NCBI RefSeq assembly: GCF_025736935.1
Contig: NZ_CP107048.1
Span: 1-64,000 of the forward strand
From: Qipengyuania sp. SS22
Lineage (GTDB): Bacteria > Pseudomonadota > Alphaproteobacteria > Sphingomonadales > Sphingomonadaceae
DNA length: 64,000 nucleotides
Reading direction: 5' to 3'
The notes under the pieces are model-generated. The model had not been told where the DNA came from, searched no databases, and saw only the letters and a program-made list of their open reading frames with translations. Of this stretch, positions 10,219 to 25,542 are shown one piece after another; the stretch's first letter is position 1, and each line of letters opens with the position of its first letter. A program made the position numbers and the translations under genes.

Positions 10219-10340
10219 GGGTGTCGCGGCCTGTCCTTCAGATATGCGTTTGCGCGCGGCCTAGCGCGGCGGCGGGGGAAAGCCAATCGGGGCGCCGGGA
10301 TCGTGCCCGACTGCACCGCATTCCCGAACGCTCGCCCCTC

Positions 10341-10356
10341 GTTAGCGCAAGCTAAC
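10341..10356. promoter_or_regulatory. TTAGC-N4-GCTAA palindrome (FNR-box architecture)
   Basis: A perfect 16-base dyad GTTAGCGCAAGCTAAC, 146 bases upstream of the GTG at 10502. Its inner 14 bases are 5-4-5 half-sites (TTAGC, four bases, GCTAA), which is the spacing of FNR/Crp-type operators (TTGAT-N4-ATCAA in FNR). Half-site-like copies occur before both Crp/Fnr genes nearby (13375 and 15028). It may be an operator for one of them. It could instead be a short RNA hairpin with a GCAA tetraloop. Confidence 0.4.
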
Positions 10357-10501
10357 GCATGTCAGTCTCGGATCAACGAGCGCGCAAGCGCGTTTGGCCG
10401 GTAGTGATATGCGCGTCCGACCGGGCGCGCGGTCGCATACGTGGGGTTTGCGCAGCGCGCCGATCCTGCGGCCTTCTGTTGGGTTTATCGCGAGGTTTCC
10501 A

Positions 10502-10741
10502 GTGTTCACGCAACTCAATCCGCCGCTTCCGGTGCTGGTAACCGACAAGGGTGCGGGGCTGGCTTTTGCGGTGATCGACTACGGGGTCGAGCACAATCTG
10601 ATCTGGGTCACCGCGCTCGACGGGTCGGGCGAGATCTGGTGCGCGCCCAATCCCAAGGTACGCCTGCAGGCAAACTGGTCGATGGGCCGCACGAAAGACA
10701 CCAGCCTGCAATTTGTGCCCGAGGGGGTGTCGTCGCAATGA
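10502..10741 (+). CDS. Small conserved-looking hypothetical protein, first gene of GntA-like operon
   Basis: A 79-residue protein of unknown function. The GTG at 10502 has GAGG seven bases upstream and gives a product beginning VFTQLNPPLPVLVTDKG. The sequence alternates short hydrophobic beta-strand-like stretches (AFAVIDYGVEHNLIWVTAL, EIWCAPNPKVRL) and ends in a polar tail. No signal peptide or membrane span is visible. Its stop overlaps the next start (ATGA at 10738), so it is translationally coupled to the haem N-oxygenase gene and probably works with it. I recognise no family; it could be a small accessory subunit. Confidence 0.72.
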   Translation: MFTQLNPPLPVLVTDKGAGLAFAVIDYGVEHNLIWVTALDGSGEIWCAPNPKVRLQANWSMGRTKDTSLQFVPEGVSSQ

Positions 10742-11439
10742 AGCCCGGCGTTCTGGCGGTCGACGATAGCGTCGCCCGCGACATCGAAGCGCAGTTTCGT
10801 GCGCATATCGCCGATACGGCGTTCCCCTGCGTCGGCGCGAAATCGGCGCAGGCGCGCGACCTGCTCGACGTGCTCGTCGCGCACGACATGCGCAGCGGGT
10901 GGGACGATCTGCGGATCCACGACCGGCTCATCGAATGGGCCGAGCAATATCGCAACGACCCCGCAGGGCTGCGCAGCATGGCGGTGGTGTTCGAACAACC
11001 CGGTTCGCTCGACGAGAACGAATATGAAAACCTGCTGTGGGAACGGCTCCAGTCCTTTGCTGAAAAGGACAATTGGCTCGGCCAGAGCTACGATCCCAGC
11101 GTCAGCCCCGACCCCACCGATCCGCATTTCTCGCTCAGCTTCGGCGGCGAAGCCTATTTCGTCGTCGGCCTGCACCCGCATGCCTCGCGCCCGGCGCGGC
11201 GCTTTGCCTATCCGACGATGGTCTTCAACCTGCACAACCAGTTCGAGGCGTTGCGTGAGGACGGGCGGTACGAACGCATGCGCGAGGCGATCCTTGATCG
11301 CGACCGCACGCTGGCGGGCGATATCAATCCCATGCTCGCCCGCCACGGCGAAAGCAGCGAAGCGCGCCAATATAGCGGCCGGGCCGTCGACGACGACTGG
11401 ACCTGCCCGTTTCGCGATCCCCGATTGGAGAAGCAATGA
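10738..11439 (+). CDS. GntA-like (YqcI/YcgG family) haem-dependent N-oxygenase
   Basis: A 233-residue protein of the YqcI/YcgG family, whose characterised member GntA N-hydroxylates the guanidine of pre-guanitoxin using haem. The family landmarks are present in order: FPCVGAKSA (about residues 29-37), MAVVFEQPG, the region SPDPTDPHFSLSFGGEAYFV, GLHPHASRPARRF, MVFNLHNQFEALRE, then NPMLARHGESSEARQYSGR and a final DWTCPF. The conserved histidines in GLHPHA and NLHNQ are candidates for haem or substrate contacts. It overlaps both neighbours by four bases. By family, it should hydroxylate a nitrogen of a guanidino or similar compound; the actual substrate is unknown. Confidence 0.85.
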   Translation: MKPGVLAVDDSVARDIEAQFRAHIADTAFPCVGAKSAQARDLLDVLVAHDMRSGWDDLRIHDRLIEWAEQYRNDPAGLRSMAVVFEQPGSLDENEYENLLWERLQSFAEKDNWLGQSYDPSVSPDPTDPHFSLSFGGEAYFVVGLHPHASRPARRFAYPTMVFNLHNQFEALREDGRYERMREAILDRDRTLAGDINPMLARHGESSEARQYSGRAVDDDWTCPFRDPRLEKQ

Positions 11440-12023
11440 ACCGCATAGAACCACGCAGCGGCGTGGCGTTCGAACTGCCCAAAGGCGCGCAGCTCACCGT
11501 CTGCGATCCCGAAGGCAGCCAGGTATCCGACCTGCTGGCCTATAATGCGCAGGATGTCCGCGAAGTCATCTCCAACGGGCGCACCTTCGATTACGAAGAG
11601 ACGATCCGGCTGGGCCGCGGGCACCGCCTGTGGTCGAACCGGTCGAACCCGATGCTGTCGATCACGTCGGACACGGTCAAACGGCACGATTTCCTGCTGA
11701 CGCCGTGTTCGGAAGACACCTTCAAGCACTTCTATCCCGACAAGCCGCTCCATCGCGGCTGCTTCGGCAATCTGGTCGAGGCGCTGGAGCCGTATGGCAT
11801 CGGGCCGGACGATATTCCGACCGCGTTCAACCTGTTCATGAATGTCCCCGTCGATGGCGACAGCGGTGTCCTGACGGTCAAGCCGCCGCTGAGCGAGCCG
11901 GGCGATACGATCGTAATGCGGGCCGAGATGGATTTGATCATCGGCCTGACCGCCTGTTCGGCCTACGATTCCAACGGCGGGTCGTTCAGGCCGATCGACT
12001 ATCAGGTGAGCACGAGTGGCTGA
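11436..12023 (+). CDS. DUF1989 / urea carboxylase-associated family protein
   Basis: A 195-residue protein of the DUF1989 family. Members occur as the paired subunits beside urea/guanidine carboxylases and are implicated in carboxyguanidine deimination. Seen are GAQLTVCDPEGSQVSDLLAYNA, a central LTPCSEDTFKHFYPDKP, HRGCFGNLVEAL, TAFNLFMNVPVDGDSG, PLSEPGDTIVMRAEMD and a final ACSAYDSNGG. The Cys, His and acidic residues in these blocks are family-conserved and could bind metal or form the active site. No carboxylase or allophanate hydrolase gene is adjacent. The pairing with the GntA-like gene upstream suggests it processes an N-hydroxylated nitrogen compound (inference). Overlaps 10738 by four bases. 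Confidence 0.85.
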   Translation: MNRIEPRSGVAFELPKGAQLTVCDPEGSQVSDLLAYNAQDVREVISNGRTFDYEETIRLGRGHRLWSNRSNPMLSITSDTVKRHDFLLTPCSEDTFKHFYPDKPLHRGCFGNLVEALEPYGIGPDDIPTAFNLFMNVPVDGDSGVLTVKPPLSEPGDTIVMRAEMDLIIGLTACSAYDSNGGSFRPIDYQVSTSG

Positions 12024-12561
12024 GGCGCTGAACCTCTGGTCCGGCTGGGCCAGAATGCTCGAAATCGCCGGCAATGCCTTTCTCTTCTATGTCCTGATCA
12101 TCATCATGGTTCGCGTGGTCGGCAAACGCACGACCAGCGAACTCAACAATTTCGACTGGATCATCAATGTCGCGGTCGGCAGCTTGGCGGCCAGCGGTAT
12201 CCTGCTGCGCAATGTCGCCACGCTCGATGCGGTCACCGCGATCATCGTGCTGGCCGCCTGCCAGTATCTGACCACAAAAATGGTCCAGAAGAGCGGGACC
12301 GCCGCCGATGTGGTCAAGGCGGAGCCGACCCTGTTGACGCATAAGGGCGACTATCTGCGTGACGCGATGGAACGTACGCGGATTTCGGAGGAAGAGATCA
12401 AGACCGCGCTGCGGCAAAGCGGTATCACGGCCAATGCCGATGCCAATTGGGTAGTGCTGGAAACCAATGGCGAGCTGTCGGTGATCCCGCGCCAGGACGT
12501 TCGCTGGGGCGAGGCCGACGCGCTGTCGGGTGTTCACTGCCCGGACGATCTCGAAGACTAG
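12016..12561 (+). CDS. DUF421 (YetF-like) membrane protein
   Basis: A 181-residue protein with an N-terminal membrane part (about residues 15-35, 48-66 and 70-85) and a soluble C-terminal domain. The motifs YVLIIIMVRVVGKRTTSELNN and IINVAVGSLAASGIL are characteristic of DUF421. The C-terminal TRISEEEIKTALRQSGI block is the YetF-type cytoplasmic domain. The GTG at 12016 overlaps the DUF1989 stop by eight bases, so it is coupled to that operon. It ends with a four-base overlap with the convergent Crp/Fnr gene. Function is unknown for the family; envelope stress and spore roles have been suggested for Bacillus relatives. Confidence 0.85.
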   Translation: MAEALNLWSGWARMLEIAGNAFLFYVLIIIMVRVVGKRTTSELNNFDWIINVAVGSLAASGILLRNVATLDAVTAIIVLAACQYLTTKMVQKSGTAADVVKAEPTLLTHKGDYLRDAMERTRISEEEIKTALRQSGITANADANWVVLETNGELSVIPRQDVRWGEADALSGVHCPDDLED

Positions 12562-13331
12562 TCCCAGTCTTCCTTCACCTTCAGCGGCCCGTCGCCATAG
12601 AGGTAGTCGGGGTCGAACTGCGCATAGCGCTTCAGCGCGGCCCAATCATTGGTGTACAGGTCGCCGCGCCGGATTTCGGCGATACCCAGCTCGCGTAACT
12701 TGCCCACCGCGCGGTTGGCGTGGATCGCGCTCACCCCGCACATATCGGCCATGTCGAACTGGGTGAAAGGCGTCCGCAGCGCGCGCGTTACGCCGCGCCC
12801 GACCAGCTCCAGCCGCGTGTGTAATTCGGCATAGAGATGCGCGATCCGCTGCGGCGCATCGAGCTGTTCGAGCGTCTGGATCCACTTGCGGTGTATCGCC
12901 GCGTCGAGCAGCGTGGCGAACCACATCGCGCGCGCCACGCCCGGCCGGTCGCGCATCACCTTGCGCAGCGTCTCGTGGCTGACCGAACCGACTTTTACCT
13001 TGCCCGCCGCGTCGATATTGTGATCGAGCCGCTTGAGCGCGAAGGCATGCAGATCGACGAAATCGCCCGGGACATGGACGCCGGTGATATAGCGCTTCTT
13101 CTCGCTCTCGATCGTGCGGAAGATATAGCCGTCGATCAGGATCATGCTGCGGTCGGTCTTCACGCCGCGAGCGAGCAGGCGCGCGCCGTCATCGTGCTCA
13201 TCGACCGCCTCCACGAGCCCTTCGATATATTGCAGATCGTCGAGACTGAGATTCTGCCGCAGGCGACCCGCGAGGAAGTTGCCGGTCAGCGGGAAACTTG
13301 CCGTTCCCAAGAGTTCGGTGGTCCCGTTCAT
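12558..13331 (-). CDS. Crp/Fnr family transcriptional regulator (paralogue 1)
   Basis: A 257-residue regulator with an N-terminal cyclic-nucleotide-binding-like beta barrel (about 20-140) and a C-terminal winged helix (about 165-235). The barrel contains VHVPGDFVDLH, and the recognition region is FDMADMCGVSAIHANRAVGKL. No N-terminal Cys cluster is seen, so it is not a classic oxygen-sensing FNR, and its ligand is unknown. It is convergent with, and touches, the DUF421 gene that ends the GntA-like operon. It is about half identical by eye to the regulator at 14205, including a shared C-terminal tail DPDYLYGDG. The ATG at 13331 is the only convincing start. Confidence 0.9.
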   Translation of the reverse strand: MNGTTELLGTASFPLTGNFLAGRLRQNLSLDDLQYIEGLVEAVDEHDDGARLLARGVKTDRSMILIDGYIFRTIESEKKRYITGVHVPGDFVDLHAFALKRLDHNIDAAGKVKVGSVSHETLRKVMRDRPGVARAMWFATLLDAAIHRKWIQTLEQLDAPQRIAHLYAELHTRLELVGRGVTRALRTPFTQFDMADMCGVSAIHANRAVGKLRELGIAEIRRGDLYTNDWAALKRYAQFDPDYLYGDGPLKVKEDWD

Positions 13332-13374
13332 CGGGCGCCGTAAAGCAACTTGTGCAAACAGCGTCTATTAACGG

Positions 13375-13385
13375 ATGTTAGCTTT
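13375..13385 (-). promoter_or_regulatory. Shared 11-mer AAAGCTAACAT upstream of Crp/Fnr paralogue 1
   Basis: Read on the minus strand, AAAGCTAACAT lies 44 bases before the start of the regulator at 12558-13331. The same 11 bases occur before the paralogue at 14205-14966 (15028-15038). It contains GCTAA, the half-site of the palindrome at 10341-10356. Possible autoregulatory operator half-site or promoter element. Confidence 0.35.
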
Positions 13386-13407: not shown

Positions 13408-14208
13408 TCATTTTTCGTCCGATCGGCAAGTCAGCAAGTGCTCGGTCGTCTCTTGTATTCTCCGCAAGGGGTGCGTGCAGTGCGGGGTGAAATCGGACAC
13501 TTTTCCGCCGGGGAGATAGCCCCAGGTTTGCAGCCGCTTGGCCAGGTCGCCGCTTGCGCGGTGCGCGGTGCGATAGTCGGCATTGCCATCGCGCAATTCG
13601 ATGCCCGGGTCGTGATCCTCGAGATCGAGAAATGCGAACAGCGCCTGCCGCGTTACATCGGGGCGGGCGACGAGATCCTCGTAGCGGATGACCAGTGAGG
13701 CATGCAGGTATGGCAGGTCCGCGGCAACGATATCATAGGCATCGAGCGCATAGCGGATGAGCGTATCGGGCTCGTCATCGACCCATTTGGCCAGCGCTGC
13801 CGCCATTATTTCGGGGTGGCGCAGGATCACGATGAATTGCGAGGTGGGAAACAGCTGCTGGTACAAGCGCATGCGGGTCAGGTTCACCGGCGATTTTTCA
13901 AGCCACCATGGTTTGGCCCGGTCCAGCCACTGCGACCAGTCCGACAGCATGCGCTGCTGCGTCTCCAGCGTATTCCAGCGCGATGCCTCGGTATGATGCT
14001 GGTGCGGATCGGTCGCATAATGCCCCGGTCGGCCATCGCGCGCGGTATGCGGGATACCGCCCTGCAGATAGCAGCCTTCGTTCTCGGGGACCGGCGCGCC
14101 TTCGATCCCGCCGACCGCCGGATGCGCGCCGAGAATGCGTGCCAGCAGGCTTGTCCCGGTGCGATGCAGCCCGGCGACGAACACGAACCGGTTGTGGCGG
14201 TGGCTCAA
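13408..14208 (-). CDS. Sulfotransferase family protein
   Basis: A 266-residue PAPS-dependent sulfotransferase-like protein. The 5'-phosphosulfate loop is VAGLHRTGTSLLARILGAHP near the N-terminus (about residues 9-28). The 3'-phosphate-binding segment is SQFIVILRHPEIM about 120 residues later, and EKSPVNLTRMRL lies between them. The start is inferred as the TTG at 14208, which overlaps the stop of the upstream Crp/Fnr gene (TTGA). Longer frames are not sulfotransferase-like, since they read the regulator in another frame. No strong ribosome-binding site is seen, so translational coupling is likely. Acceptor unknown; nearby glycosyltransferases suggest a saccharide or glycolipid. Confidence 0.82.
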   Translation of the reverse strand: MSHRHNRFVFVAGLHRTGTSLLARILGAHPAVGGIEGAPVPENEGCYLQGGIPHTARDGRPGHYATDPHQHHTEASRWNTLETQQRMLSDWSQWLDRAKPWWLEKSPVNLTRMRLYQQLFPTSQFIVILRHPEIMAAALAKWVDDEPDTLIRYALDAYDIVAADLPYLHASLVIRYEDLVARPDVTRQALFAFLDLEDHDPGIELRDGNADYRTAHRASGDLAKRLQTWGYLPGGKVSDFTPHCTHPLRRIQETTEHLLTCRSDEK

Positions 14209-14966
14209 GCGAATTCGCGCAGCGACAGCGCGCCGTCGCCGTAGAGGTAATCTGGGTTGAAGCCGGCGTAGGCCTCGAGCCTTTCGCGATCGGCAATCCG
14301 TACCTTGCCGCGCTGGAAATCGGCCAGGCCGTTCTTCCTCAGGTCGGCCAGTGCGCGGTTGGTATGGATCGAGGTCGCGCCGCACATATCGGCAATGTCG
14401 CTCTGCCGCAGCGGAGTTTCGAAGCCATCGGCATAGCCAAGGCCGACCATTTCGAGCCGCCGCCAGATCTCGGCGAAGATATGCGCAATGCGCTTGGGCG
14501 CGGTCAGTTGCTCGAGCTTCATGATCCATTCGCGGTGCATCGCCGCGTCGAGCAGGGTCGAGAACCAGAACAGGCGCGCCAGATGCGGGCGGTTCGCCAT
14601 TACGTCGGCGATCGCCGCATGCGGCACCTGACCAAGCTTCACCGAACCCACGCAATCGATGTTGTGATCGAGCCGCTTGAGCGCAAAACAGTGCAGGTCG
14701 ACGAAATCTCCCGGCACATGGAAGCTCACGCCATAGCGCCGGTCCTCGCTTTCCAGCGTGCGCAGGATGAAGCCGTCGATCAGCAGCGTGGAGCAATCGC
14801 ATACATCGCCGCGCGCGATCAGCCGCTCGCCATCTTCCAGCGTCAGGGTCCGCGAGACCAAACCTTCGAGTTCGGACTTCTCGGCATCGGTCATGTCGTG
14901 CCGCAAGCGCCCGGTCAGGAACCGTCCGGTCATGGGATAGCGGTCCAGCTCGTCGGTGAGCGCCAT
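14205..14966 (-). CDS. Crp/Fnr family transcriptional regulator (paralogue 2)
   Basis: A 253-residue Crp/Fnr regulator. It has a nucleotide-binding-like barrel containing FHVPGDFVDLHCFALKRLDH, a long dimer helix and a winged-helix region QSDIADMCGATSIHTNRALADL. AGGAGG lies just upstream of two tandem ATGs (14969 and 14966); the second has the better five-base spacing and is used. It is clearly a paralogue of 12558-13331, one gene away. The sulfotransferase gene is coupled to its stop. It is divergent from the glycosyltransferase at 15098, so the 131-base gap probably holds two promoters. Effector unknown. Confidence 0.9.
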   Translation of the reverse strand: MALTDELDRYPMTGRFLTGRLRHDMTDAEKSELEGLVSRTLTLEDGERLIARGDVCDCSTLLIDGFILRTLESEDRRYGVSFHVPGDFVDLHCFALKRLDHNIDCVGSVKLGQVPHAAIADVMANRPHLARLFWFSTLLDAAMHREWIMKLEQLTAPKRIAHIFAEIWRRLEMVGLGYADGFETPLRQSDIADMCGATSIHTNRALADLRKNGLADFQRGKVRIADRERLEAYAGFNPDYLYGDGALSLREFA

Positions 14967-15027
14967 CATTTCCTCCTGTCGAGAGAATGCAATGCGATGC
15001 CGGCCGTTCCGGTAGCACACTGTATAA

Positions 15028-15038
15028 ATGTTAGCTTT
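15028..15038 (-). promoter_or_regulatory. Shared 11-mer AAAGCTAACAT upstream of Crp/Fnr paralogue 2
   Basis: The identical 11-mer found before paralogue 1, here 62 bases before the ATG at 14966 and in the divergent gap facing the GT4 gene at 15098. Adjacent sequence on the same strand continues TTATACAG, which has a -10-like look. Could be an operator half-site or a shared promoter element. Confidence 0.35.
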
Positions 15039-15097
15039 GCGGAGCGGCGGCAGATGGCGCGTTTGCCTGACATGTCTCGCAATTGCCTGATCCGCCC

Positions 15098-16219
15098 ATG
15101 AAAATCGCGGTCCTCGCCCATATCCGCCATGCCATCGCCGAACCCTTCGGGGGCGGGATGGAGGCGCATTGCGACATGCTGTGCCGCGGGCTTCGCGCGG
15201 CGGGTCACGAGGTCGATCTCTTCGCCGCCGAAGGATCGCATGACGAGAACCTCGTGCCGATCTGCGCCGCGCCCTATGACGAGGTGCTGCCATGGCGCGT
15301 TTATCGCGGGACCAGCGAACTCGCCGCCTATCAGCGCGCCGCTTTCGAACGCGTGTTGCTCAAGATCGGCGGCGGCGGGTATGATGTGGTCCACAACAAC
15401 TCGCTCTTTCCCGAAATCATCGCCTGGTGCGCGCAAGCGGGTATCCCCTGCGTCACCTCGCAGCACGTGCCGCCCTTCGGCACGATGTTCGATGCGGTGG
15501 AAGCGGCACGTGCGCAGCCGCACATCGGCTTCACTGTGACCTCGCATGACCAGCAATCGCTATGGGCCGATCGCGGCTGCCCTGGTCTCGATGTGATCTC
15601 CAACGGTATCGATACCGACCGCTGGGTGCCGGCGGGCGAGCCGGGCGACTATTTGACATGGGTGGGCCGTATCGTCCCCGACAAGGGGCTGGCCGAGGCG
15701 ATCCAGGCGGCGCGCAAGGTGCGGGCCCGGTTGAAGATCTTCGGACCGGTCGAGGATGCCGCGTATTTTACTGCGAAGGTCGAACCCTTCCTGTCCGAGG
15801 GCATCGAGTTCCACGGGCACCGCTCGACTGAAAGGCTACGTCAGGAGGTCGCGCAGGCCCGGGGCGCGTTGGTCACGCCCCTGTGGGACGAACCGTTCGG
15901 TCTGGTGGCAGCGGAAGCGCTGTCCTGCGGCACGCCCGTCGCCGGGTTCAATCGCGGGGCGCTGTCCGAAGTGGTCGGCGACTGCGGCATCCTGGTCAAA
16001 GGCGGCGATGTCGGCGCGCTGGCGCACGCCATCCGCCGACTTGACTCGATCGACCGAACCGCGTGCCGCGAGCGGGCGACGAGCATGCTCTCGATCGAGG
16101 CGATGATCGCGGGGTACGAGCGGTGCTACGCCAAGGTCATCGCCGGGGCGCGGCTCGCTTCCTTGCCGCGGCTTGCCTGGGCCTCGAGCTGTTCGAGCAC
16201 CACCGAACTGCTCGCATAG
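15098..16219 (+). CDS. Family 4-like glycosyltransferase
   Basis: A 373-residue GT-B retaining glycosyltransferase. The N-terminal acceptor domain starts KIAVLAHIRHAIAEPFGGGM (glycine-rich loop). The linker and donor domain include YLTWVGRIVPDKGL and the E-x7-E motif EPFGLVAAEALSCGTPV that binds the sugar nucleotide. The ATG at 15098 gives the usual MKIAVL start; the TTG at 15083 is possible. The last 30 or so residues (Ser/Leu-rich) run into the convergent GT2 gene, overlapping it by 94 bases, and look non-homologous to the family. Acceptor and sugar are unknown. Confidence 0.85.
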   Translation: MKIAVLAHIRHAIAEPFGGGMEAHCDMLCRGLRAAGHEVDLFAAEGSHDENLVPICAAPYDEVLPWRVYRGTSELAAYQRAAFERVLLKIGGGGYDVVHNNSLFPEIIAWCAQAGIPCVTSQHVPPFGTMFDAVEAARAQPHIGFTVTSHDQQSLWADRGCPGLDVISNGIDTDRWVPAGEPGDYLTWVGRIVPDKGLAEAIQAARKVRARLKIFGPVEDAAYFTAKVEPFLSEGIEFHGHRSTERLRQEVAQARGALVTPLWDEPFGLVAAEALSCGTPVAGFNRGALSEVVGDCGILVKGGDVGALAHAIRRLDSIDRTACRERATSMLSIEAMIAGYERCYAKVIAGARLASLPRLAWASSCSSTTELLA

Positions 16220-17067
16220 GGCTGGTGTTCCTGTTGCCGGGTGAGCGCGAAATGCGCCTCGCCCGGTTCGCGCAGCTTGATCCAGCCGCCGCGTCCGTCG
16301 GGCTCGATCAGCCCCATCAGGCGGAACGCACGCAGCCAGTGCTGCATCGTCGGTTCGCCCCATTTCTCCGCAAAGATCTGTGCATTGGCGACGACGCTGT
16401 CGAGATGGTGCACCGGCGGCATGTGGTGCTTATGATACTGGTGATAGGCCTTCGCCCCGCGCGCCCACCACAGCGGGACGTCATGCGCCGCAATGGTGCG
16501 CCCGAAATCGGTATCCTCGCCGCCATAGCCGACATAGCGCGGATCGAACCCGCCCAGTTCTTGGAAGGTCTTGGTCCGAAGCGCAAAATTGAGCGACCAG
16601 AAGCAGCGGTAATCGCCGCAATGGCCGACCATCCCGCGCGGTGGTCCGGCCCGGTCGGAATGCTTGACCGCCAACCGTTCGAACTTCGTATAGTCGATAC
16701 CGTCCTCGGTCGCGCCCTGCGGAAGATAGCCGACTTCGCCCATCAGCACGCCTTCATTGAAGGCAGAGGCGGCGGCATAATCCTCGATCAATCCCGGCGC
16801 GGGGATGCAGTCGACATCGAGGAAGACCAGCAATTCGCCGCGCGCATGTTCGGCGGCGGTGTTCCTCGCTTCCGCGAGGCAAATGTCCCCGCTGCCGAGC
16901 AACACCTGCCGGATCGGGAAGCTGGTGCTGGGTAGCTCGTAACGGTGGTCCTGCATGACCGCGATCACCAGTTCGCAAGGCGGGCGGCGCGAATGGTTCA
17001 GTCCGCTGACCAGATTGCGCAGATGGTCTTCGCGTCCATGCGCGAGCGTGCATACCGAAATCGTCAT
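16126..17067 (-). CDS. Family 2 glycosyltransferase
   Basis: A 313-residue GT-A inverting glycosyltransferase. SVCTLAHGREDHLRNLV opens the nucleotide-binding half. LLVFLDVDCIP carries the DxD metal motif, and GGFDPRYVGYGGEDTDFGRT holds the ED acceptor/catalytic signature near residue 200. It then has HHMPPVHHLDSVV, a His-rich loop. The ATG at 17067 overlaps the stop of 17064 by four bases, so it is the third gene of the SPS-like operon. It is cytoplasmic with no membrane span. The C-terminus overlaps the convergent GT4 gene by 94 bases. The sugar transferred cannot be told. Confidence 0.87.
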   Translation of the reverse strand: MTISVCTLAHGREDHLRNLVSGLNHSRRPPCELVIAVMQDHRYELPSTSFPIRQVLLGSGDICLAEARNTAAEHARGELLVFLDVDCIPAPGLIEDYAAASAFNEGVLMGEVGYLPQGATEDGIDYTKFERLAVKHSDRAGPPRGMVGHCGDYRCFWSLNFALRTKTFQELGGFDPRYVGYGGEDTDFGRTIAAHDVPLWWARGAKAYHQYHKHHMPPVHHLDSVVANAQIFAEKWGEPTMQHWLRAFRLMGLIEPDGRGGWIKLREPGEAHFALTRQQEHQPYASSSVVLEQLEAQASRGKEASRAPAMTLA

Positions 17068-18203
17068 GCCACGACCTCCAGCGCGGGCTTGCTGTCCATT
17101 CCCTGCCACAGCTCGGTCGCGAGCGTGTCCAGCCATGCCGCGGCCGCTTCGGCCGGGTGTGGTTCGATGATCGCCCGCTGCTGTTCGACATCGATCAGCG
17201 CCGCGGCCGACCACAGCCGCTGCCACGCGGCGGGGTGCGAAGGCCAGTGGCGCGACACCGCCGCCAGCCCTTCGCGATCGAGCACTTCGGCCTTGCAGAA
17301 CTGCTCGTCGAAATAGCGCCATTCGGGAATGACTACCCATGGCTTGCCCGCCGCCAGCACCATGTGCACGGTAGTATTTCCGCAGGACGAAACCACGCGA
17401 TCCGCTGCGGCGATCCAGTCGCGCGGATTCTCGACCCAGCCGCGATGGTCGAGATTGCCCGGCGGGGTCTCGTGCCATTCGCTGCGGACCTTGCCGATGG
17501 TGATCCAGCGGGCCTCGGGTTCGGCGCGCGCGCCCAGCGTCAGCGGGGTCGACGGAGTGCCTTCACCACCGCCGCCGGCAATGACCAGCACGATTTCGTC
17601 TTCCCCGCCCAGTCCGAGTTTGCGCCGCGCTTCGCGCTTGGTGGGAAACTGCGTGCAGTCGATCCCCACGCCCGAGGCATAATGCGTCTTCCGGCGCAGA
17701 TAGGCCGGGCGGTCATGCTGTTCGATCTGCTCCGAATAGGGGGCGAGCAGGCCGACCGCGCTATCATAGGCGGCGAGATGCCCCGGATCGCCGCGTTCGC
17801 CATGCTGGAGCACCGCGACATGCGGCACCGAACACAGCCGCGCCAACTGGCCAAGTTCGGCGGAGACATCGGTTACGAAGAGGCTGGGTCGTGCCTGCGC
17901 GAACCACCCCGAAATCGTTGCGAACGCATCGGTGATCGTTGGCCAGCCGAGCGGGGCGCAATGAACCGTCTCGGGCATCGGAAGCGCGGCCATGGCAGGC
18001 GCTTCCCGTCCGGTCGGCTCGAACAGCGAGGGGATCGTGCGGATTTCGATCCGCTCGTCGAGCGCCGGGAAGATGTCGTCCCGTGCGCAGAACAGCGTCA
18101 CGCCGCGCGACCCGATCAATTCATTGGCGATCGCCGCCGCGCGCTCGGCATGGCCGCGCCCCTGGTGGTGGACGAAATAGCCGATGGGGCCGGTCATGCT
18201 CAT
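17064..18203 (-). CDS. GT-B glycosyltransferase (MurG/UGT-like fold)
   Basis: A 379-residue glycosyltransferase. GYFVHHQGRGHAERAAAIA near the N-terminus is the glycine-rich acceptor-side loop typical of MurG-like and related enzymes. LVIAGGGGEGTPS begins the donor domain, and RVVSSCGNTTVHMVLAAGKP is the C-terminal nucleotide-sugar binding block. The ATG at 18203 has AAGGA seven bases upstream, and it overlaps the upstream gene stop by four bases. It lies between the SPS-like gene and the GT2 gene, so all three probably build one product. Substrates unknown. Confidence 0.83.
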   Translation of the reverse strand: MSMTGPIGYFVHHQGRGHAERAAAIANELIGSRGVTLFCARDDIFPALDERIEIRTIPSLFEPTGREAPAMAALPMPETVHCAPLGWPTITDAFATISGWFAQARPSLFVTDVSAELGQLARLCSVPHVAVLQHGERGDPGHLAAYDSAVGLLAPYSEQIEQHDRPAYLRRKTHYASGVGIDCTQFPTKREARRKLGLGGEDEIVLVIAGGGGEGTPSTPLTLGARAEPEARWITIGKVRSEWHETPPGNLDHRGWVENPRDWIAAADRVVSSCGNTTVHMVLAAGKPWVVIPEWRYFDEQFCKAEVLDREGLAAVSRHWPSHPAAWQRLWSAAALIDVEQQRAIIEPHPAEAAAAWLDTLATELWQGMDSKPALEVVA

Positions 18204-20266
18204 GCTGGAATCCTTGTATCCTGGCGCTCGCGAAGCCGCTGCGCGCGGTGCTGCGCGAGGATGCCCTCGAGCGTGCCGGAGGCGTGGCTACGCCGCGCCA
18301 GATAGACATTGGGACGCCTTGCCAATGCGGCGATCTCCGCCGCGTGATTGCCGACCATGATCGCGTTCTGGCAGGCGGTCAGCATATCCTCGTCATTGCC
18401 GCTGTCGCCGGCCGCGAAGACCTGTTCGACCGGCACATCGAACATGCGTGCGACATGCCCCATCGCCGCTGCCTTGCCAGCCATGGGCGGCAGGACGTCG
18501 AGCAGGCGGTCGTGGCTGAATACGACGCGCGCCGGGATGCCATGGCTGCGCAGCCGATCCTCGACCTGCGCCGCCAAATCGGGCGAGCTGGCGAAATAGC
18601 TGCGCTTGAAGGGGCGTTGCTCGTAGCTCGCCTGCGGGATCAGTCCCGGCAGGTCGCCCAGCGCCTCGTCGATGGCAGTGGGGTGCCATTCATAGCTGAT
18701 GCCATCGGCATAATCGGTATCCAGCACCAACGTGCCGCCGCGCTCGACATAGATCTCGGTCCCGACCGAAGTGATCCAGGCGCGCGGGTCGGGCAGCTTC
18801 CAGTCACGCACCAGTCGGCGCGCTTCGACGATCGAGCGACCGGTGGCGATCACAAAACCGAACTGCGCCTGCCGCTGGAAGAACTGGCCGATGCGCAGCG
18901 CACCGCGGTCGCAGCCGGTGAGCGTGTTGTCGAGATCGCTGACCAACAGGTGAGCAGGCCGCGGACGCAACGGGGTGGCGGGCGCGGTGACCTGCCTGGC
19001 AATCGCCATGAAGCCGCCCGCATAGGCATCCCAATTGACCCCCCGGCTGTTGGCCTGCGCATTATGCGAGCATGTGTCCCACAGTCGGCGATCGGTGACC
19101 AATTGCTCGATCGCCTGGCTTATTTCGCTCTCGCTCCCCGGGTCGACCAGCAAGCCATGCTCGAGTTCGCCGACGATATCCTGCGGGCCGCCGATCTTGG
19201 TGGCGACGACGGGAACGCCATGCGCGGCGGCCTCGACCAGTGTCAGGCCGTAGGGCTCCATCAGCGCGGGATTGACGAACACGCCGCGCGTCCGGGCGGC
19301 GAGGGTATAGAGCTCCTTCACCTGCTGGCGCGTGTGCGACTTGGGATAGGCGACGCTGCCGTAGAGATCATGGCGGTCGACCGCATCGATGAGACCGCGC
19401 AGCACATCCTGCTGCTCCGCTTCGCCCGATTGCAGATCGTCGCGCAGCCCGGCGAGGACGACCAGATTGCATTGCTCGCGCAGCGTAGCCGACTTGCCGA
19501 AGGCTTCGACGAGCCGGACGAGATTCTTCTTGTGGACGGGGCGGGCAATCGCCAGCAGCACCGGCTTCATCGGTTCGCGCAGGAAGGGGGAGATCAGTTC
19601 GATCGCCGAAGAGATTTCGCTGCCCGCGGAACTGCGGTCGATACCCGGGATGAGGCGATGGATCTTGCCGATCCGGGACGAAGGATAGGCCGCCAGCTGC
19701 CGTTCGCATTCGTCGCGTGACGAGCCGATGATGGCGCGCGCACCCGCAATCGCCCGATCCTCTTCCGCGATCCGCGCATCGAGCGGGGCGCTCGGCGCAT
19801 CCATCGCGAGGCGCTTGTCCATGCCGAGCGAATGCGCGGTGTAAATGAAGGGAATGCCCAGCGCGTCTTCGACCTTGCGCGCCACATCCGCTGCATCGGC
19901 AAAATGCGCATGTATCAGGTCGGGGAGCCGCTCGCGCTGTTTGAGCTCCGCGATCAGCGCCTCGGTAAAGGCGGCGCGGTCGGCGCTCAGCGCCTCCTTG
20001 GCCAGATAGCGCCGATTGCCGCTGTCGATCCGCCGTACCACCAGCTTGGGGCCAAGCCATTCCTCGGCCTCGGCATGGATCGCGCCGAGCCGCGGATCGT
20101 CGAACCGCCGCGTAATGATTTCTGTCATTTCCACATCGCCGCGCCGGGCAAGCGCTTCCATCTCGCCCAGGATATAGGTGATGTGCCCCCCCGTATCTTC
20201 GGTGATCCCGTACCGGACCGGCTCGCCTTTCAGGCAGCCGCCGAGTGCGAGCGATACGATATGCAA
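18200..20266 (-). CDS. Sucrose-phosphate-synthase-like GT fused to HAD-IIB phosphatase
   Basis: A 688-residue two-domain enzyme. Residues about 1-435 form a GT-B retaining glycosyltransferase of the sucrose-phosphate synthase type: TEDTGGHITYILGEM (the DTGG loop), ARPVHKKNL, and the donor site NPALMEPYGLTLVEAAAHG. Residues about 440-688 are a HAD-IIB phosphatase like sucrose-phosphate phosphatase, with nucleophile motif LLVSDLDNTLTG and motif GDSGNDEDML. A fusion of this kind can make and dephosphorylate sucrose 6-phosphate or a similar disaccharide phosphate. Sucrose is the default guess, but mannosylfructose- or glucosylglycerate-type products cannot be excluded. The next two genes are coupled by overlaps, so a further glycosylated product is likely. 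Confidence 0.85.
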   Translation of the reverse strand: MHIVSLALGGCLKGEPVRYGITEDTGGHITYILGEMEALARRGDVEMTEIITRRFDDPRLGAIHAEAEEWLGPKLVVRRIDSGNRRYLAKEALSADRAAFTEALIAELKQRERLPDLIHAHFADAADVARKVEDALGIPFIYTAHSLGMDKRLAMDAPSAPLDARIAEEDRAIAGARAIIGSSRDECERQLAAYPSSRIGKIHRLIPGIDRSSAGSEISSAIELISPFLREPMKPVLLAIARPVHKKNLVRLVEAFGKSATLREQCNLVVLAGLRDDLQSGEAEQQDVLRGLIDAVDRHDLYGSVAYPKSHTRQQVKELYTLAARTRGVFVNPALMEPYGLTLVEAAAHGVPVVATKIGGPQDIVGELEHGLLVDPGSESEISQAIEQLVTDRRLWDTCSHNAQANSRGVNWDAYAGGFMAIARQVTAPATPLRPRPAHLLVSDLDNTLTGCDRGALRIGQFFQRQAQFGFVIATGRSIVEARRLVRDWKLPDPRAWITSVGTEIYVERGGTLVLDTDYADGISYEWHPTAIDEALGDLPGLIPQASYEQRPFKRSYFASSPDLAAQVEDRLRSHGIPARVVFSHDRLLDVLPPMAGKAAAMGHVARMFDVPVEQVFAAGDSGNDEDMLTACQNAIMVGNHAAEIAALARRPNVYLARRSHASGTLEGILAQHRAQRLRERQDTRIPA

Positions 20267-20283
20267 AACTGGTCCCCTTGATT

Positions 20284-20310
20284 GGCTTCGCCCAGCTAAC
20301 GGGCGAAGCC
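20284..20310 (-). terminator. Hairpin between mocA-like gene and SPS-like gene
   Basis: Ten-base perfect arms (GGCTTCGCCC at 20284-20293 and GGGCGAAGCC at 20301-20310) enclose a seven-base loop. It lies 59 bases beyond the end of the leftward aldehyde oxidoreductase operon. There is no long T run, so termination efficiency is uncertain. Confidence 0.6.
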
Positions 20311-20368
20311 GCGTCGCCGCCTCCCAACCATCATTGCGTAAGCTGGGAACAGGGGATGGCCGAAGGGG

Positions 20369-20962
20369 TTAGCGGCGCCCGGCGGGGTTCTGCGACGAGA
20401 GCGCGAGCAGGTCTTCGGGCGTATCGATGTCCGCCAGCGTGGCGGCGCTGGCCGGAGCGATCGCACTTGCGTCCGCCAAACCGAGGCTCCGTGCGCCCGC
20501 TTCGCCTTGCAAGGCGCAGAGGCGATCGAAGATGCTGCGTGGAAAGCCCGCCGGGGATCCCTCGGCGCCGCTGGCATAACGCGTGAAGACCGGACCGCCG
20601 GTTTCGGCCAGCAGGCGAAGATGGGCAGGCTCGACGAAGGGCATATCGGCCAGCGCAATGACCACGCGCGAACAATCCTGCGCAGCACGCACGCCTGCCG
20701 CAATCGATGTCCCCATACCCTCGGCGGCGCGGTCATTGGTCACCGCATGCCAGCCGCTCCGCGCCGGGATGGCGGAATGCGGGCCGCTCACAATGTAACG
20801 CTGCGCAAAGCCCGCCTCTTCCGCTGCTAGCGCGACCCATGACCACAGCGGCTGACCGCGGAAGTCCTGGGTGAGCTTGTCGCGGCCGAACCGCTTTCCC
20901 CGGCCCGCAGCGAGGAAGATGAACCCGACCCCGGGGTCAATCGGCGGCACGCAATCGCTCAT
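20369..20962 (-). CDS. MocA-like molybdenum cofactor nucleotidyltransferase
   Basis: A 197-residue GT-A nucleotidyltransferase. FIFLAAGRGKRFGRDKLTQDF is the LAAGxGxRFGxDK nucleotide loop of the MocA/MobA group, and VVIALADMPFVEPAHL holds the metal-binding Asp (ADMP). TLADIDTPEDL is the C-terminal signature. The position directly after XdhC in a molybdo-enzyme operon suggests it makes the cytosine dinucleotide form of the cofactor used by aldehyde oxidoreductases. I start it at the ATG at 20962; an in-frame TTG nine bases earlier is possible. Overlaps xdhC by 26 bases. Confidence 0.82.
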   Translation of the reverse strand: MSDCVPPIDPGVGFIFLAAGRGKRFGRDKLTQDFRGQPLWSWVALAAEEAGFAQRYIVSGPHSAIPARSGWHAVTNDRAAEGMGTSIAAGVRAAQDCSRVVIALADMPFVEPAHLRLLAETGGPVFTRYASGAEGSPAGFPRSIFDRLCALQGEAGARSLGLADASAIAPASAATLADIDTPEDLLALSSQNPAGRR

Positions 20963-21788
20963 ATTCGGCAACGATTTCCGCCAGCGCGGACAGCGCCAGC
21001 GTGGTGGGGGATTTGCAGGAGGGGATCAGTCCGATCGGGCTGCGGATGGAGGCAATCGCCTGCTCGTCCACGCCGCGCGCAGCTAGCGTCAGCGCGCGGT
21101 CCATCCGCGCATTTTCGCCGCCCTGCGCGCCAATGTAGAAAGCCTCGCCCGAGGTTATTTGTTCGAACAGCGCGGCTTCCCATTCGTGGTCGTGGAACAG
21201 CAGCAGCGCGGCAGTCCAGCGGTCGAGTGTGATATGCGGGGCGGGCGAGCCGAGCGTGAGGTGGTCTTTGCGATGGGTCTCGATATGCAGCCTCATCGCT
21301 GCGCCAAGCTGCGCGAAGGCTTCGAGCTCGGGCCCTTCGCCGATAACCGCGATTTTCAGGCGCGGCTGATAGCGGCGCTCAGCCAGCGGGGACGGGGATG
21401 GCAGCGGGAGAACGGCCGGGCGGCGGCTGTCGAGTGCTTGCACGATATCGCGGCAGGCGATGCGCTGGGGTGCAGGGTCGAGCAGGATATCCAGCCCGCC
21501 GCCACAGGGCAGGCGGAAGTCGATCATCGCCGAACCGCTCCCGTAGCGGATGACGCGTGGGCCGGTTTGCGCGTGCAGATCGCTGACAAGTTGCGCTTCG
21601 AGACAGCCATCGGACAGGTTGCCTATGGTTGTCCCATCGGGACGCACTGCCAGTTGCGCGCCCAGCCGCCGCGAAAAGCTGCCTTCGATACCGACGATCG
21701 TACACAGGCCGACCCCGGGTTCGCAGGCGGCGACCAGTGCGGCGTGATCCTCGTCGACATCCTGCCGAAATGTCTGCTCGGCCAGCAT
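20937..21788 (-). CDS. XdhC-family molybdenum enzyme maturation protein
   Basis: A 283-residue XdhC/CoxI-type chaperone that binds and sulfurates the molybdenum cofactor and inserts it in the partner enzyme. The N-terminal domain has GLCTIVGIEGSFSRRLGAQ and GNLSDGCLEAQL, where the cysteine of the SDGCLEAQ motif is the key conserved residue. The C-terminal Rossmann-like domain includes KIAVIGEGPELEAFAQ and IRSPIGLIP. The ATG at 21788 shares one base with the stop of the molybdenum subunit gene (TGATG). It is the fourth gene of the operon, as PaoD is in E. coli. Confidence 0.88.
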   Translation of the reverse strand: MLAEQTFRQDVDEDHAALVAACEPGVGLCTIVGIEGSFSRRLGAQLAVRPDGTTIGNLSDGCLEAQLVSDLHAQTGPRVIRYGSGSAMIDFRLPCGGGLDILLDPAPQRIACRDIVQALDSRRPAVLPLPSPSPLAERRYQPRLKIAVIGEGPELEAFAQLGAAMRLHIETHRKDHLTLGSPAPHITLDRWTAALLLFHDHEWEAALFEQITSGEAFYIGAQGGENARMDRALTLAARGVDEQAIASIRSPIGLIPSCKSPTTLALSALAEIVAEYERLRAAD

Positions 21789-23977
21789 CAATCGGGCATG
21801 GCCGCCAACACGCGGTCGGGGGTCATCGGATAGTCGAACAGCCGTGCGCCGCAGGCGTGGTAGATCGCATTGGCAATCGCCGCCGCCCCGCCGCACATGC
21901 CCAGCTCGCCGATGCCCTTGGCCTGGATCGGGCTAGCAGCGGGATCGCGTTCCTCGACCATGATGACCTCGAGGTCGGGCACATCGCGATGCACGGGGAC
22001 ATGGTATTCGGCGAGATCGCAATTCACCAGATGGCCGTCGCGCGGATCGAATTCGAGCGCTTCGGTCAGCGCCGCGCCGATGCTCCAGGTGATCCCGCCG
22101 AAGCATTGCGAGCGCGCGGTCTTGCGGTTGAGCACGCGGCCGAAGCCAAACGCGCCGAGCATGCGATCGACGCGGGTCTCGCCGGTGTAGTGGTTGACCC
22201 GCACCTGTGCGAAGAACGCGCCAAACCCGGCCGCGGTAAAGTCGTCGTCGATCGCGCCGGGTTCGTAATGGCCTTCCTGCGCGAGTTCGGTGCCATCGAG
22301 CAGTTGCACCAGCGTTTTGCCGCCGACGACCTGGCCATTGGCGAGATCGAGTTCGGTCTCCGCCACGCCGACACGCGACGCCAGTTCCTCGCGCAGCGCC
22401 TTGCACGCCACATAGACCGCCGAACCACTCGAAGCCGCGCCCCAGCTGCCGCCCGAACCCGGTCCGCGTGGATGGCGGGTATCGCCCAGATCGACCAACA
22501 CGTCGGCGGTATCGAGACCGAGCATTTCCCCCGCGATCTGCGCCAGGATGGTATAGGTCCCGGTGCCGATATCGGTCATGTCGGTTTCGACCAGCGCAGT
22601 GCCATCGGGCTTGAGCGTGACGCGGGCATTGGCCTCGCCGACATTGTGGACACGGGCCGCGCTCGCCATTCCGGTCCCCACCCACCATTCACCCTCGCGC
22701 GTCATCCGCGGTTTGCGCGGACCCGCATCCCAGCCAAAGGCATCGGCGCCCTGCCGGAGGCATTCGGCGAGCTTGTGCGACGAGAACGGCAGGCCCTCCT
22801 CGGGATCTTCCTTGGGGATATTGCGCAGCCGCAGTTCGACCGGATCGATACCGACCTCTTCGGCGAGCACGTCCATCGCGCCTTCGAGCGCCGGCATACC
22901 GACCGCTTCGCCCGGTGCGCGGACCGAGCCGGCGGTCATAAGGTGGATGCGCGCGACGTTGAGCATAAGCTCGCGATTATCCCCGCCATAAAGGAAGTGC
23001 GAGGATTGCAGCACGGGCTCGGCGAAGGTTTCGCCCGGCAGGTTCGACACCAGCGCCTCATGGCCAAAGCCGACCAGCCCGCCATCCGCATCCGCTGCCA
23101 GCCGCAGGCGCTGGGTCGTCTCCGACCGGCGCATGATGCATTGAAACACCTGCTGGCGCGACATGACGACACGCACCGGGCGCTCGAGTTCCATGGCAGC
23201 GAGAGAGGCGGCGACGGTCTCCTCGCTGATCCCCAGCTTGGAGCCGAACCCGCCCCCGACGAAGCGCGAAACCAGCCTGACCTTGTCTTCGTCCAGACCC
23301 AGCGAGTCCGCCAGTTCGGAGATGTTATAGTTCAGCATCTGGAGCGATGCATGGACGGTCAGTTTCTCGCCGTCCCATTCGGCAATGGCGGCATGGGGTT
23401 CCATTGCCGCCGAGGCGTGCCCCTTGGTGGTGTAGGTAACGTCGACGCTATGCGCGGCGGTGGACATGGCCTGCGCCAGGTCGCCTTGCCGGACGGTCTC
23501 GTCTTCCTGCTCCTCGGGCTCGACATTGGCCGGAGACAGCGGCGCGCCGGGCTCTTCGCGATATTCGACAACCAGATGCTTCGCTGCGTCGCGTGCCTGT
23601 TCGAACGTCTCCGCCACCACCAGCGCGATCGGCTGGCCCCAATAGCAGACGGTTTGCGGCGATTGCTGCGGTGCCTCGTTCGCGGTGCCCTGCGCGGCGC
23701 GCGTGGTCAGCCGCTGATCGTCGATCACCGCAATGACGCCCGCTCGGCCCAGCACGCTATCCTTGTCGATGCGGACGATCTCGCCGTGCGTGATCGTCGC
23801 CGTGACCAGCACGCCTTCGGCGCAGCCGTCCACCGGGTATTCGGCAGCATAGGGTGCGGTTCCGGTGACCTTGGCCAGCCCTTCGACACGGCTGAGTGGT
23901 TTCCCGATTACGCCCTGCTTCATCGAATCCAGCCGGTTGGCGGTATCGGGTTCGTCCTGCTTGAGATGCGCGCTCAT
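21788..23977 (-). CDS. Molybdopterin-binding subunit of aldehyde/xanthine oxidoreductase (PaoC-like)
   Basis: A 729-residue catalytic subunit of a xanthine-oxidase-family enzyme. Seen are GKPLSRVEGLAKVTG at the N-terminus, FVGGGFGSKLGISEE in the first molybdopterin region and TDIGTGTYTILAQIAGE in the second. The C-terminal GIGELGMCGGAAAIANA contains the invariant catalytic Glu (about residue 691). The set of a separate small FeS, FAD and Mo subunit plus XdhC matches PaoABCD of E. coli, which oxidises aromatic aldehydes. The exact aldehyde is unknown. The ATG at 23977 overlaps the FAD-subunit stop by four bases. Confidence 0.9.
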   Translation of the reverse strand: MSAHLKQDEPDTANRLDSMKQGVIGKPLSRVEGLAKVTGTAPYAAEYPVDGCAEGVLVTATITHGEIVRIDKDSVLGRAGVIAVIDDQRLTTRAAQGTANEAPQQSPQTVCYWGQPIALVVAETFEQARDAAKHLVVEYREEPGAPLSPANVEPEEQEDETVRQGDLAQAMSTAAHSVDVTYTTKGHASAAMEPHAAIAEWDGEKLTVHASLQMLNYNISELADSLGLDEDKVRLVSRFVGGGFGSKLGISEETVAASLAAMELERPVRVVMSRQQVFQCIMRRSETTQRLRLAADADGGLVGFGHEALVSNLPGETFAEPVLQSSHFLYGGDNRELMLNVARIHLMTAGSVRAPGEAVGMPALEGAMDVLAEEVGIDPVELRLRNIPKEDPEEGLPFSSHKLAECLRQGADAFGWDAGPRKPRMTREGEWWVGTGMASAARVHNVGEANARVTLKPDGTALVETDMTDIGTGTYTILAQIAGEMLGLDTADVLVDLGDTRHPRGPGSGGSWGAASSGSAVYVACKALREELASRVGVAETELDLANGQVVGGKTLVQLLDGTELAQEGHYEPGAIDDDFTAAGFGAFFAQVRVNHYTGETRVDRMLGAFGFGRVLNRKTARSQCFGGITWSIGAALTEALEFDPRDGHLVNCDLAEYHVPVHRDVPDLEVIMVEERDPAASPIQAKGIGELGMCGGAAAIANAIYHACGARLFDYPMTPDRVLAAMPD

Positions 23978-24956
23978 GCGGCGTCCTCCGTCGCTTGCGA
24001 CAGCACCGCATGCAGGGTGCGCCGCGCCAGGGGGATCTTGAAGTCGTTCTCGCCATAGCCGCGCGCGCCTTCGAGAAGCACGTCGGCCGCGGCATCGAAC
24101 AGTTCGGTGGACGGGACTTGGCCGATTAGCGTCTCGGCAATCCGCTGATCGTGCCACGGTTTGTGCGCCAGCCCGCCAAAGGCGAGATCGGCGCGTGAAA
24201 TCTTGCCGTCCTTCACTTCGACCACCGCCGCAATCGACACCAGGGCGAAGGCATAGGACGAGCGTTCGCGCACCTTGCGGTAAAGCTGCGTCCCGCCCAC
24301 CGGGCGCGGAAGCGTAACCGCAGTGATCACTTCGCCGGGTTCGAGGACGTTCTCGATCCATGGCGTATCGCCGGGCAGGCAGTGGAAATCGCGCACCGGG
24401 ACCGTCCGTTCGGCATCTTCGCCGGTGGCAATATGGACCGTCGCATCGAGCGCGCTCAGCGCCACAGCCATGTCTCCGGGATAGGTGGCGATGCAGTCTT
24501 CACTGGTGCCGAGGATCGCATGCAGCTTGGCAATCCCGTCGATCGCGCCGCAGCCGCTACCGGGTTCGCGCTTGTTGCACGGCTGGTCGATATTCATGAA
24601 ATAGAAGCAGCGGGTGCGCTGGCACAGATTGCCGCCGGTCGTGGCCTTGTTGCGCAATTGCTGCGTCGCCCCGGCCAGGATCGCCCGCGCGAGCACGGGA
24701 TAGTCCGCGCGGACCCGCGGATGCACCGCGGTCGCGGTATTTGTCGCTAGCGCGCCGATGCGCAGACCGCCATCGTCGGTATCCTCGATTTCCGCAAAGC
24801 CCACCCGGTTGACATCGGCCAGCTGCCCCGGCGTTTCGACCTGCAGTTTCATCAGGTCGAGCAGATTGGTCCCGCCCGCGATTGCAGTGGTTTCGGGTTC
24901 GGCGAGCATCTGCGCCGCATCCGCCAGCGTCCGTGCGCGATTGTATTGGAAAGGCC

Positions 24957-24960
<4 letters not shown>
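23974..24960 (-). CDS. FAD-binding subunit with extra 4Fe-4S site (PaoB-like)
   Basis: A 328-residue FAD subunit of the molybdo-flavoenzyme. TAIAGGTNLLDLMK (residues 25-38) is the FAD pyrophosphate loop and QLRNKATTGGNLCQ the second FAD contact. Four cysteines at residues 113, 118, 128 and 137 form the insertion that binds an additional [4Fe-4S] cluster in PaoB and in 4-hydroxybenzoyl-CoA reductase beta subunits, and is absent from ordinary xanthine dehydrogenases. It passes electrons from the 2Fe-2S subunit to an acceptor. The ATG at 24960 overlaps the next gene's stop by four bases. Confidence 0.9.
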
Positions 24961-25463
<503 letters not shown>

Positions 25464-25542
25464 GGACGCCTCCTTTACCCGATTAACCCTTTCCGGGCTA
25501 AAGGTGTCCGCGTCTCTGAAAATATCCGGTCGGTGCTGCCGC

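Follow-up and report, generated by a model that had tools for sequence, protein, structure and literature searches.

A conserved YqcI/YcgG–DUF1989 gene pair in Qipengyuania sp. SS22, a candidate module for the turnover of a guanidino compound under stress

The window analyzed here is a stretch of 64,000 nucleotides (positions 1-64,000 of contig NZ_CP107048.1, assembly GCF_025736935.1) from the 2.68-Mb single-contig genome of Qipengyuania sp. SS22. It encodes, side by side on the + strand, a YqcI/YcgG protein of 233 amino acids (10738-11439) and a DUF1989 protein of 195 amino acids (11436-12023), each present in one copy in the genome. The two genes stay adjacent in at least 12 phyla, joining in one compact module two enzyme families with few characterized members each. 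On balance, we favor its interpretation as a two-enzyme module that disposes of, or turns over, a guanidino compound under stress. Each family has been described before, but neither the module nor its connection to stress appears to have been, and no paper on the YqcI–DUF1989 pair was found among the matches listed in the open-access literature (subscription papers and supplements were outside the search).

Conservation of the gene pair

In a sample of 298 genomes from the family to which strain SS22 belongs, 114 carried YqcI homologues (126 places), and 111 carried a member of the DUF1989 subfamily (116 places; profile A2, E ≤ 1e-40). Both genes occurred in 110 genomes, YqcI only in 4, DUF1989 only in 1, and neither in 183 (Fisher test, 9e-76, uncorrected for relatedness). 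The DUF1989 gene was located directly downstream of a same-strand YqcI gene (gap of -50 to 200) at 113 of its 116 places, and 113 of the 126 YqcI places had such a downstream neighbor; the pairing is well past chance level. An earlier reading of the sequence alone had proposed that a GntA-type YqcI protein is paired here with a DUF1989 protein, which the analysis supports.

YqcI-only genomes had distant or weak (G054, G061) or short (G176, G215) matches, and in the DUF1989-only genome (G093) the gene was located at a contig start. The 13 unpaired YqcI places comprised five extra copies beside a paired copy in the genome (G008, G194, G187, G213, G060), two in genomes with a DUF1989 gene elsewhere (G077, G293), and six short or distant matches (G176, G178:C11, G215 twice, G054, G061). 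The pair was present in two and absent in three of the five sampled genomes of the window's genus; thus, the module comes and goes. In the class sample, YqcI was encoded in 9 of 289 genomes with DUF1989 alongside in 9/9 (YqcI was broken by a stop in one of the pairs, G341). In the phylum sample, it was encoded in 22 of 398 genomes, and a same-strand DUF1989 gene came next at 22 of 23 places, the exception being a second YqcI copy in G714. Both samples were drawn from the YqcI side and share genomes with the family sample.

A contig scan with a Deinococcus-headed alignment of the DUF1989 subfamily was also performed, and the best 80 of at least 588 relatives were taken. YqcI was present in the locus for 79 of these 80 and was adjacent on the same strand in 78, including a partial YqcI (L125) and a fused open reading frame (ORF; L169); YqcI was on the opposite strand in L133 and was missing from L159. 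According to genus or family names in the record titles, many of which are marked as metagenome-assembled genomes (MAGs), the 80 loci include members of Gemmatimonadota, Acidobacteria, Armatimonadetes, Actinobacteria, Eremiobacterota, Planctomycetes, Verrucomicrobia, Proteobacteria, Chloroflexi, Bdellovibrionales, Nitrospira, and Bacteroidota (Flammeovirgaceae); a "Bacillus" record with a doubtful label (L155) was excluded from the phylum count. Among plasmids (best 40 of 511 records), the 14 best DUF1989 matches, with 49.7-72.6% identity, all adjoined a YqcI match, the next ones having at most 39% identity; the best 14 YqcI plasmid matches were likewise all paired with DUF1989. The paired plasmids include those of Deinococcus, Hymenobacter, Chryseobacterium, Skermanella, and Comamonas; the DUF1989 match of a Hymenobacter plasmid was in two pieces and unannotated.

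In the Nitrospira MAG locus L169 (5119-6588), YqcI and DUF1989 formed one ORF through a 2-base gap at the junction relative to L185 and L187; this fusion may have arisen recently or through faulty assembly. Two CgdB-like matches in Nitrospira, reported without other guanidine genes and discounted as probable false positives (PMC12342949), may belong to the DUF1989 subfamily of the window, because three Nitrospira-type loci (L169, L185, L187) carry the pair.

Predicted functions of the two proteins

The YqcI protein gave a full-length match to YqcI_YcgG (PF08892; profile 1-211 of 211, 193.9 bits against a cut-off of 27, E 4e-57). Its Cys31, present in all 70 YqcI sequences over which conservation was counted, takes the place of the haem ligand Cys44 of AglA, an assignment resting on position, conservation, and the shared fold. 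The spacing between C31 and F141 is 110 residues, compared with 108 between C44 and F152 of AglA. These features make the protein a likely thiolate-haem N-oxygenase of the GntA type. An older idea, in which the YqcI cysteine anchors a growing peptide (PMC2922099), has given way to the haem-thiolate structure of AglA.

The NCBIfam GntA model NF041366 was exceeded by the YqcI protein (247.2 bits against a cut-off of 145), but it also labels as GntA the DUF1989-paired proteins of Hymenobacter, Deinococcus, and Chryseobacterium. Because these Bacteroidota and Deinococcota proteins get the same name, the model is without discriminating power, and its cut-off seems too permissive. The YqcI protein is called "guanitoxin biosynthesis ... 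GntA" in 14 of the 17 best plasmid records (H1-H17), and, if the proposed module is right, many database entries of this name are probably incorrect.

Pairing with DUF1989 is a property of one YqcI subfamily. Another YqcI operon without DUF1989 was observed on a Rahnella plasmid (L108, 4938-10223), together with genes for a short-chain dehydrogenase/reductase, a 2Fe-2S protein, a LysE exporter, a phenylalanine-tRNA-ligase-beta-related protein, and a MOSC-domain protein. A ycgG or YqcI/YcgG gene, encoding a different relative, has been reported among sporulation-linked genes of Bacillus, another stress or dormancy setting.

The DUF1989 protein matched PF09347 (E 3.3e-58, profile 2-168 of 168) and is likely, judging by its residues, to be a zinc enzyme. 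C91, C109, and C174 were each present in all 53 sequences counted, and these cysteines align with the zinc cysteines of Tdm, a protein with DUF1989 and GcvT domains (PMC12560246). The protein also has H106 and D32, and the equivalents of Tdm H276 and D198 are kept. At the same time, the proposed iron ligand D346 of Tdm corresponds to position 177, which is Glu in 35 of 53 sequences and Tyr in the window's protein. The GcvT domain is absent from this DUF1989-only protein, and its score with the trimethylamine N-oxide (TMAO) demethylase model NF053776 was 80.9 against 1100 bits.

CgdAB (UAAP1/UAAP2) belongs to the same family and is reported to act on a guanidine derivative. However, CgdAB is an A/B pair with a linked carboxylase, whereas the DUF1989 protein studied here is single, far below both carboxyguanidine deiminase cut-offs (TIGR03424, 112.3 against 284.7 bits; TIGR03425, 77.7 against 205.95 bits), and has no carboxylase link. 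Urea/guanidine carboxylase TIGR02712 was over the cut-off in 41 of the 298 genomes, namely, in 20/114 genomes with YqcI versus 21/184 others (p 0.17). It was below the curated cut-off throughout the genome of strain SS22, in agreement with the earlier statement that no urea carboxylase is present.

Upstream motifs and the general stress response

The motif of EcfG, a factor described as exclusive to Alphaproteobacteria (PMC3892343), has been reported as GGAAC-N16-CGTT (PMC7083833) and GGAAC-N17-20-GTT (PMC6599016). We searched for GGAAC-N15-18-[CG]GTT in about 300 bases upstream. The first set consisted of 61 loci, i.e., the window and 60 hand-picked regions of the 126 places; 59 had a clustered YqcI (L032 and L090 fell out), and 58 were placeable. 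The motif was present in 14 of 58 YqcI upstream regions versus 0.44 expected from mononucleotide shuffles and versus 16 of 836 other genes at the same loci (Fisher test, 3e-10). In the second set, it was found in 12 of 32 alphaproteobacterial loci versus 2 of 53 others (p 9e-5). The two sets are not fully separate (L179 and L069 are one place), and sites of relatives do not count as independent. Expression of the pair appears to be part of the general stress response in many alphaproteobacteria.

The exact GGAAC motif was not found before the operon of the window. A weak EcfG-type promoter candidate, GGATC-N16-CGTT, is located at 10370-10394 on the + strand; this pattern was chosen once the site had been seen, and mononucleotide shuffling of the 283 bp upstream reproduced it in 9 of 2000 sequences. 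GGATC is present at two sites (#1765, #2527) of the table for Sphingomonas melonis Fr1; the main text of the Fr1 EcfG paper does not contain the words YqcI, YcgG, or guanid-.

The region at 13408-28059 contains two Crp-family genes and a DNA-ligase-D-like ORF, together with genes for a sulfotransferase, glycosyltransferases, a sucrose-phosphate synthase/phosphatase-like protein, and a CO-dehydrogenase-type molybdenum enzyme with XdhC; ligase D and the small 2Fe-2S subunit were identified by eye. It is likely a stress-response island by analogy, resembling in gene kinds the top EcfG list of strain Fr1, which includes a cAMP-binding regulator, CoxL/M/S, glycosyltransferases, and Ku. Pairs elsewhere were located near ligD (Chryseobacterium), xanthine-dehydrogenase subunits and catalase (Comamonadaceae), and a KGG-domain gene (Deinococcus).

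Proposed function and alternative explanations

The analysis shows that the two genes form a conserved pair, with predicted folds and invariant cysteines for their products; haem and zinc occupancy, the chemistry, the order of steps, the substrate, and the physiological role are inferred. In the proposed scheme, the YqcI protein would N-hydroxylate a small, common cellular compound at its guanidine (or a similar N-H) group; the reaction would use O2, and a general reductase would supply the electrons. The N-hydroxyguanidine would then be split by the DUF1989 protein, acting as a zinc hydrolase or lyase, into a ureido-type or similar product and ammonia or hydroxylamine. The route would be independent of guanidine carboxylase, and protection against a guanidino compound accumulating under stress would be its simplest role. 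The logic is shared with the methylguanidine pathway MgdH–MgdL, in which a hydroxylated guanidine produced by an oxygenase is cut by another enzyme (PMC12508155). There, however, a 2-oxoglutarate dioxygenase and a lyase are encoded in a riboswitch-controlled guanidine carboxylase operon (PMC12508155), and MgdH–MgdL hydroxylates carbon, whereas nitrogen is proposed for YqcI. If true, the scheme would provide an O2-dependent, carboxylase-independent branch of guanidine/arginine chemistry and a function for DUF1989 proteins outside urea/guanidine carboxylase operons. It poses the question of which guanidino compound is hydroxylated and cleaved, and why under stress.

Several observations weigh against this scheme. 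Identity of YqcI to AglA in the structural match is only 17-19%. The AglA substrate contacts R179 and Q177 are His166 (66/70) and Asn164 (70/70) in YqcI, AglA K196 is Tyr178, and the position of R200 is occupied by Arg in 46 and Gln in 22 of the 70 sequences; therefore, the substrate contacts and part of the haem contacts differ from AglA. Compared with the haem guanidine N-oxygenases AglA, GntA, and ChmN as a group, the substrate-contact residues are replaced, the second haem-propionate arginine is kept in just 46/70 sequences, and the partner is a DUF1989 protein instead of a biosynthetic cluster. Hydrolysis by the DUF1989 protein is a guess because members of the family vary in activity (carboxyguanidine deiminase, TMAO demethylase). 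YqcI genes beyond the subfamily, from Rahnella and one Streptomyces plasmid (33-36% identity class), had no DUF1989 annotated alongside in the two regions opened, a second Streptomyces, archaeal, and Pseudoalteromonas records (H16, H18-H26) being left out; the 80 loci and the plasmid matches were ranked by likeness to the paired DUF1989 and so describe that subfamily. Regarding the stress link, the longest-ORF start rule applied to the background gives 9/59 YqcI regions, not 14/58. The strict motif separated the second set more poorly (5/32 versus 1/53, p 0.03), and the motif is absent from most loci (44/58 and 20/32). The promoter candidate of the window breaks the AAC triplet, which is nearly invariant in Sphingopyxis EcfG sites (3/79 mismatched, PMC7083833). 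Hydroxylation followed by degradation is still the best reading.

Among the alternatives, O2-dependent nitrogen scavenging from guanidine, arginine, or agmatine, with ammonia used for growth, is unlikely, albeit the foremost. The DUF1989 relatives CgdAB are reported to serve nitrogen assimilation from guanidine (PMC11271267, PMC12508155), and another route would be useful in the 94 of 114 YqcI genomes without urea/guanidine carboxylase over the cut-off. On the other hand, neither a guanidine-type transporter nor a nitrogen regulator was recognized alongside the pair (10 proteins, six pair-bearing plasmid regions annotated), neither the window nor 12 of the 80 loci contained a guanidine riboswitch at the gathering score, and a stress-type promoter signal was obtained.

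The substrate-contact residues unlike those of AglA would also suit a different haem reaction, such as oxidation of a non-guanidine amine or peroxide or NO chemistry, with DUF1989 processing the product. We consider this rather improbable: the two aromatic residues that in AglA enclose the arginine side chain are retained (F169 in 70/70 sequences; F141 in 62/70, with Tyr in 7/70), and the other known links of DUF1989 are to guanidine derivatives and an N-oxide.

Nitric oxide synthase (NOS) N-hydroxylates the guanidine nitrogen of arginine with a thiolate haem, and NOS oxygenase domains make up much of the list of structural matches after AglA. Together with the stress-type promoters in relatives, this leaves some room, with a low probability, for a functional analogue of bacterial NOS in signaling or defense. 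Under stress, such a pair would convert arginine into a reactive nitrogen compound (hydroxylamine, nitroxyl, nitric oxide, or an N-hydroxy metabolite) instead of destroying one. Slightly less probable is its more particular form, a split analogue serving as a widespread stress-response pathway that moves horizontally in a dozen phyla, with a haem enzyme lacking sequence kinship to NOS that N-hydroxylates arginine or another guanidine and a zinc DUF1989 protein that cleaves the N-hydroxyguanidine, releasing hydroxylamine or a reactive nitrogen species.

A role of YqcI as a true GntA, in an operon tailoring a guanitoxin-type or other secreted metabolite, is highly improbable, since, in spite of the score with the GntA model and of other YqcI proteins reported within biosynthetic clusters (PMC12866846, PMC10849742, PMC2922099), no biosynthetic cluster was recognized in the window or the wide loci examined, no guanitoxin cluster surrounds the pair in the window (other Gnt genes were not searched genome-wide), and the GntA name is also given to DUF1989-paired proteins.

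Companion genes and genomic neighborhood

The sequence-only reading had described four ORFs with overlaps of 4-8 bases; all of them are present on the + strand, with overlaps of 4, 4, and 8 bases. The first (10502-10741, + strand, GTG start) encodes a 79-amino-acid protein, a single-copy gene in the genome, and the last (12016-12561, + strand, GTG start) a membrane protein of 181 amino acids with the C-terminal YetF domain (DUF421). Pfam agreed with the YqcI/YcgG, DUF1989, and DUF421 calls, the last ORF matching profile positions 2-71 of 129 (E 4.4e-13) and remaining below the cut-off for YetF_N (24.8 against 26.5 bits). The small protein had been described as of unknown family, and it gave no Pfam or NCBIfam match at E ≤ 1.

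Both flanking genes are companions at some loci, outside the core. The earlier four-gene proposal mostly failed the check for conservation as a unit in other genomes: co-occurrence of the YqcI–DUF1989 core proved far wider than had been supposed, but the order small protein-YqcI-DUF1989-DUF421 was confined, among 186 scanned loci (several repeating the same place), to the window and genomes G146 and G014. The four-gene operon was accordingly rejected as a conserved unit. A 79-amino-acid-type ORF directly upstream of the pair was likewise limited to these two genomes beyond the window. A same-strand DUF421 gene was the immediate next one in G014, G131, G146, and G247; in G178 and G258, one small gene intervened.

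Flanks of the pair vary. At the 61 loci, the widest clusters were Crp-family genes (13/61) and DUF421 (10/61), others reaching at most 7; ExbD/ExbB/TonB-like genes, recognized by eye, occurred in 6-7 loci beyond a helicase-like gene. No third core gene was found in a partial search that scanned 10 of 135 flanking ORFs of the diverse set. A family-2 glycosyltransferase was encoded just upstream of YqcI in L116, L123, L141, and L143 (Rubrobacter, Chloroflexi, Eremiobacterota), these being mutually related. A PLD-like gene was present in five Gemmatimonadota loci, and a protein without Pfam matches overlapped DUF1989 in L130, L136, and L176.

Neighbors of the YqcI gene in the window include DUF1989, DUF421, DUF819, MMSDH, Crp-family, sulfotransferase, and glycosyltransferase genes. 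A Crp-family regulator gene is convergent to the operon (12558-13331, - strand); Crp-family genes are also near the pair at some other loci. A perfect inverted repeat, CGTTAGC-GCAA-GCTAACG (10340-10357; core TTAGC-N4-GCTAA, 10342-10355), lies upstream of the operon, and the related TTAAC-N4-GTTAG (13368-13381) precedes the convergent gene. The idea of a Crp/FNR operator was rejected: the two palindromes compare with 0.86 expected, 20 of 100 shuffles reached two, and 0 of 58 upstream regions of relatives contained one.

Relatives of the 79-amino-acid protein, differently arranged, were observed near the pair at some sphingomonad loci. The protein had no plasmid matches and one match in a sewage phage record (MW091528; 75% identity over 81% of its length). 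In some sphingomonads, a different family-2 glycosyltransferase adjoins the pair, and a SECIS_3 selenocysteine element is located near the pair in an Oxalicibacterium MAG (L122, 7791-7849).

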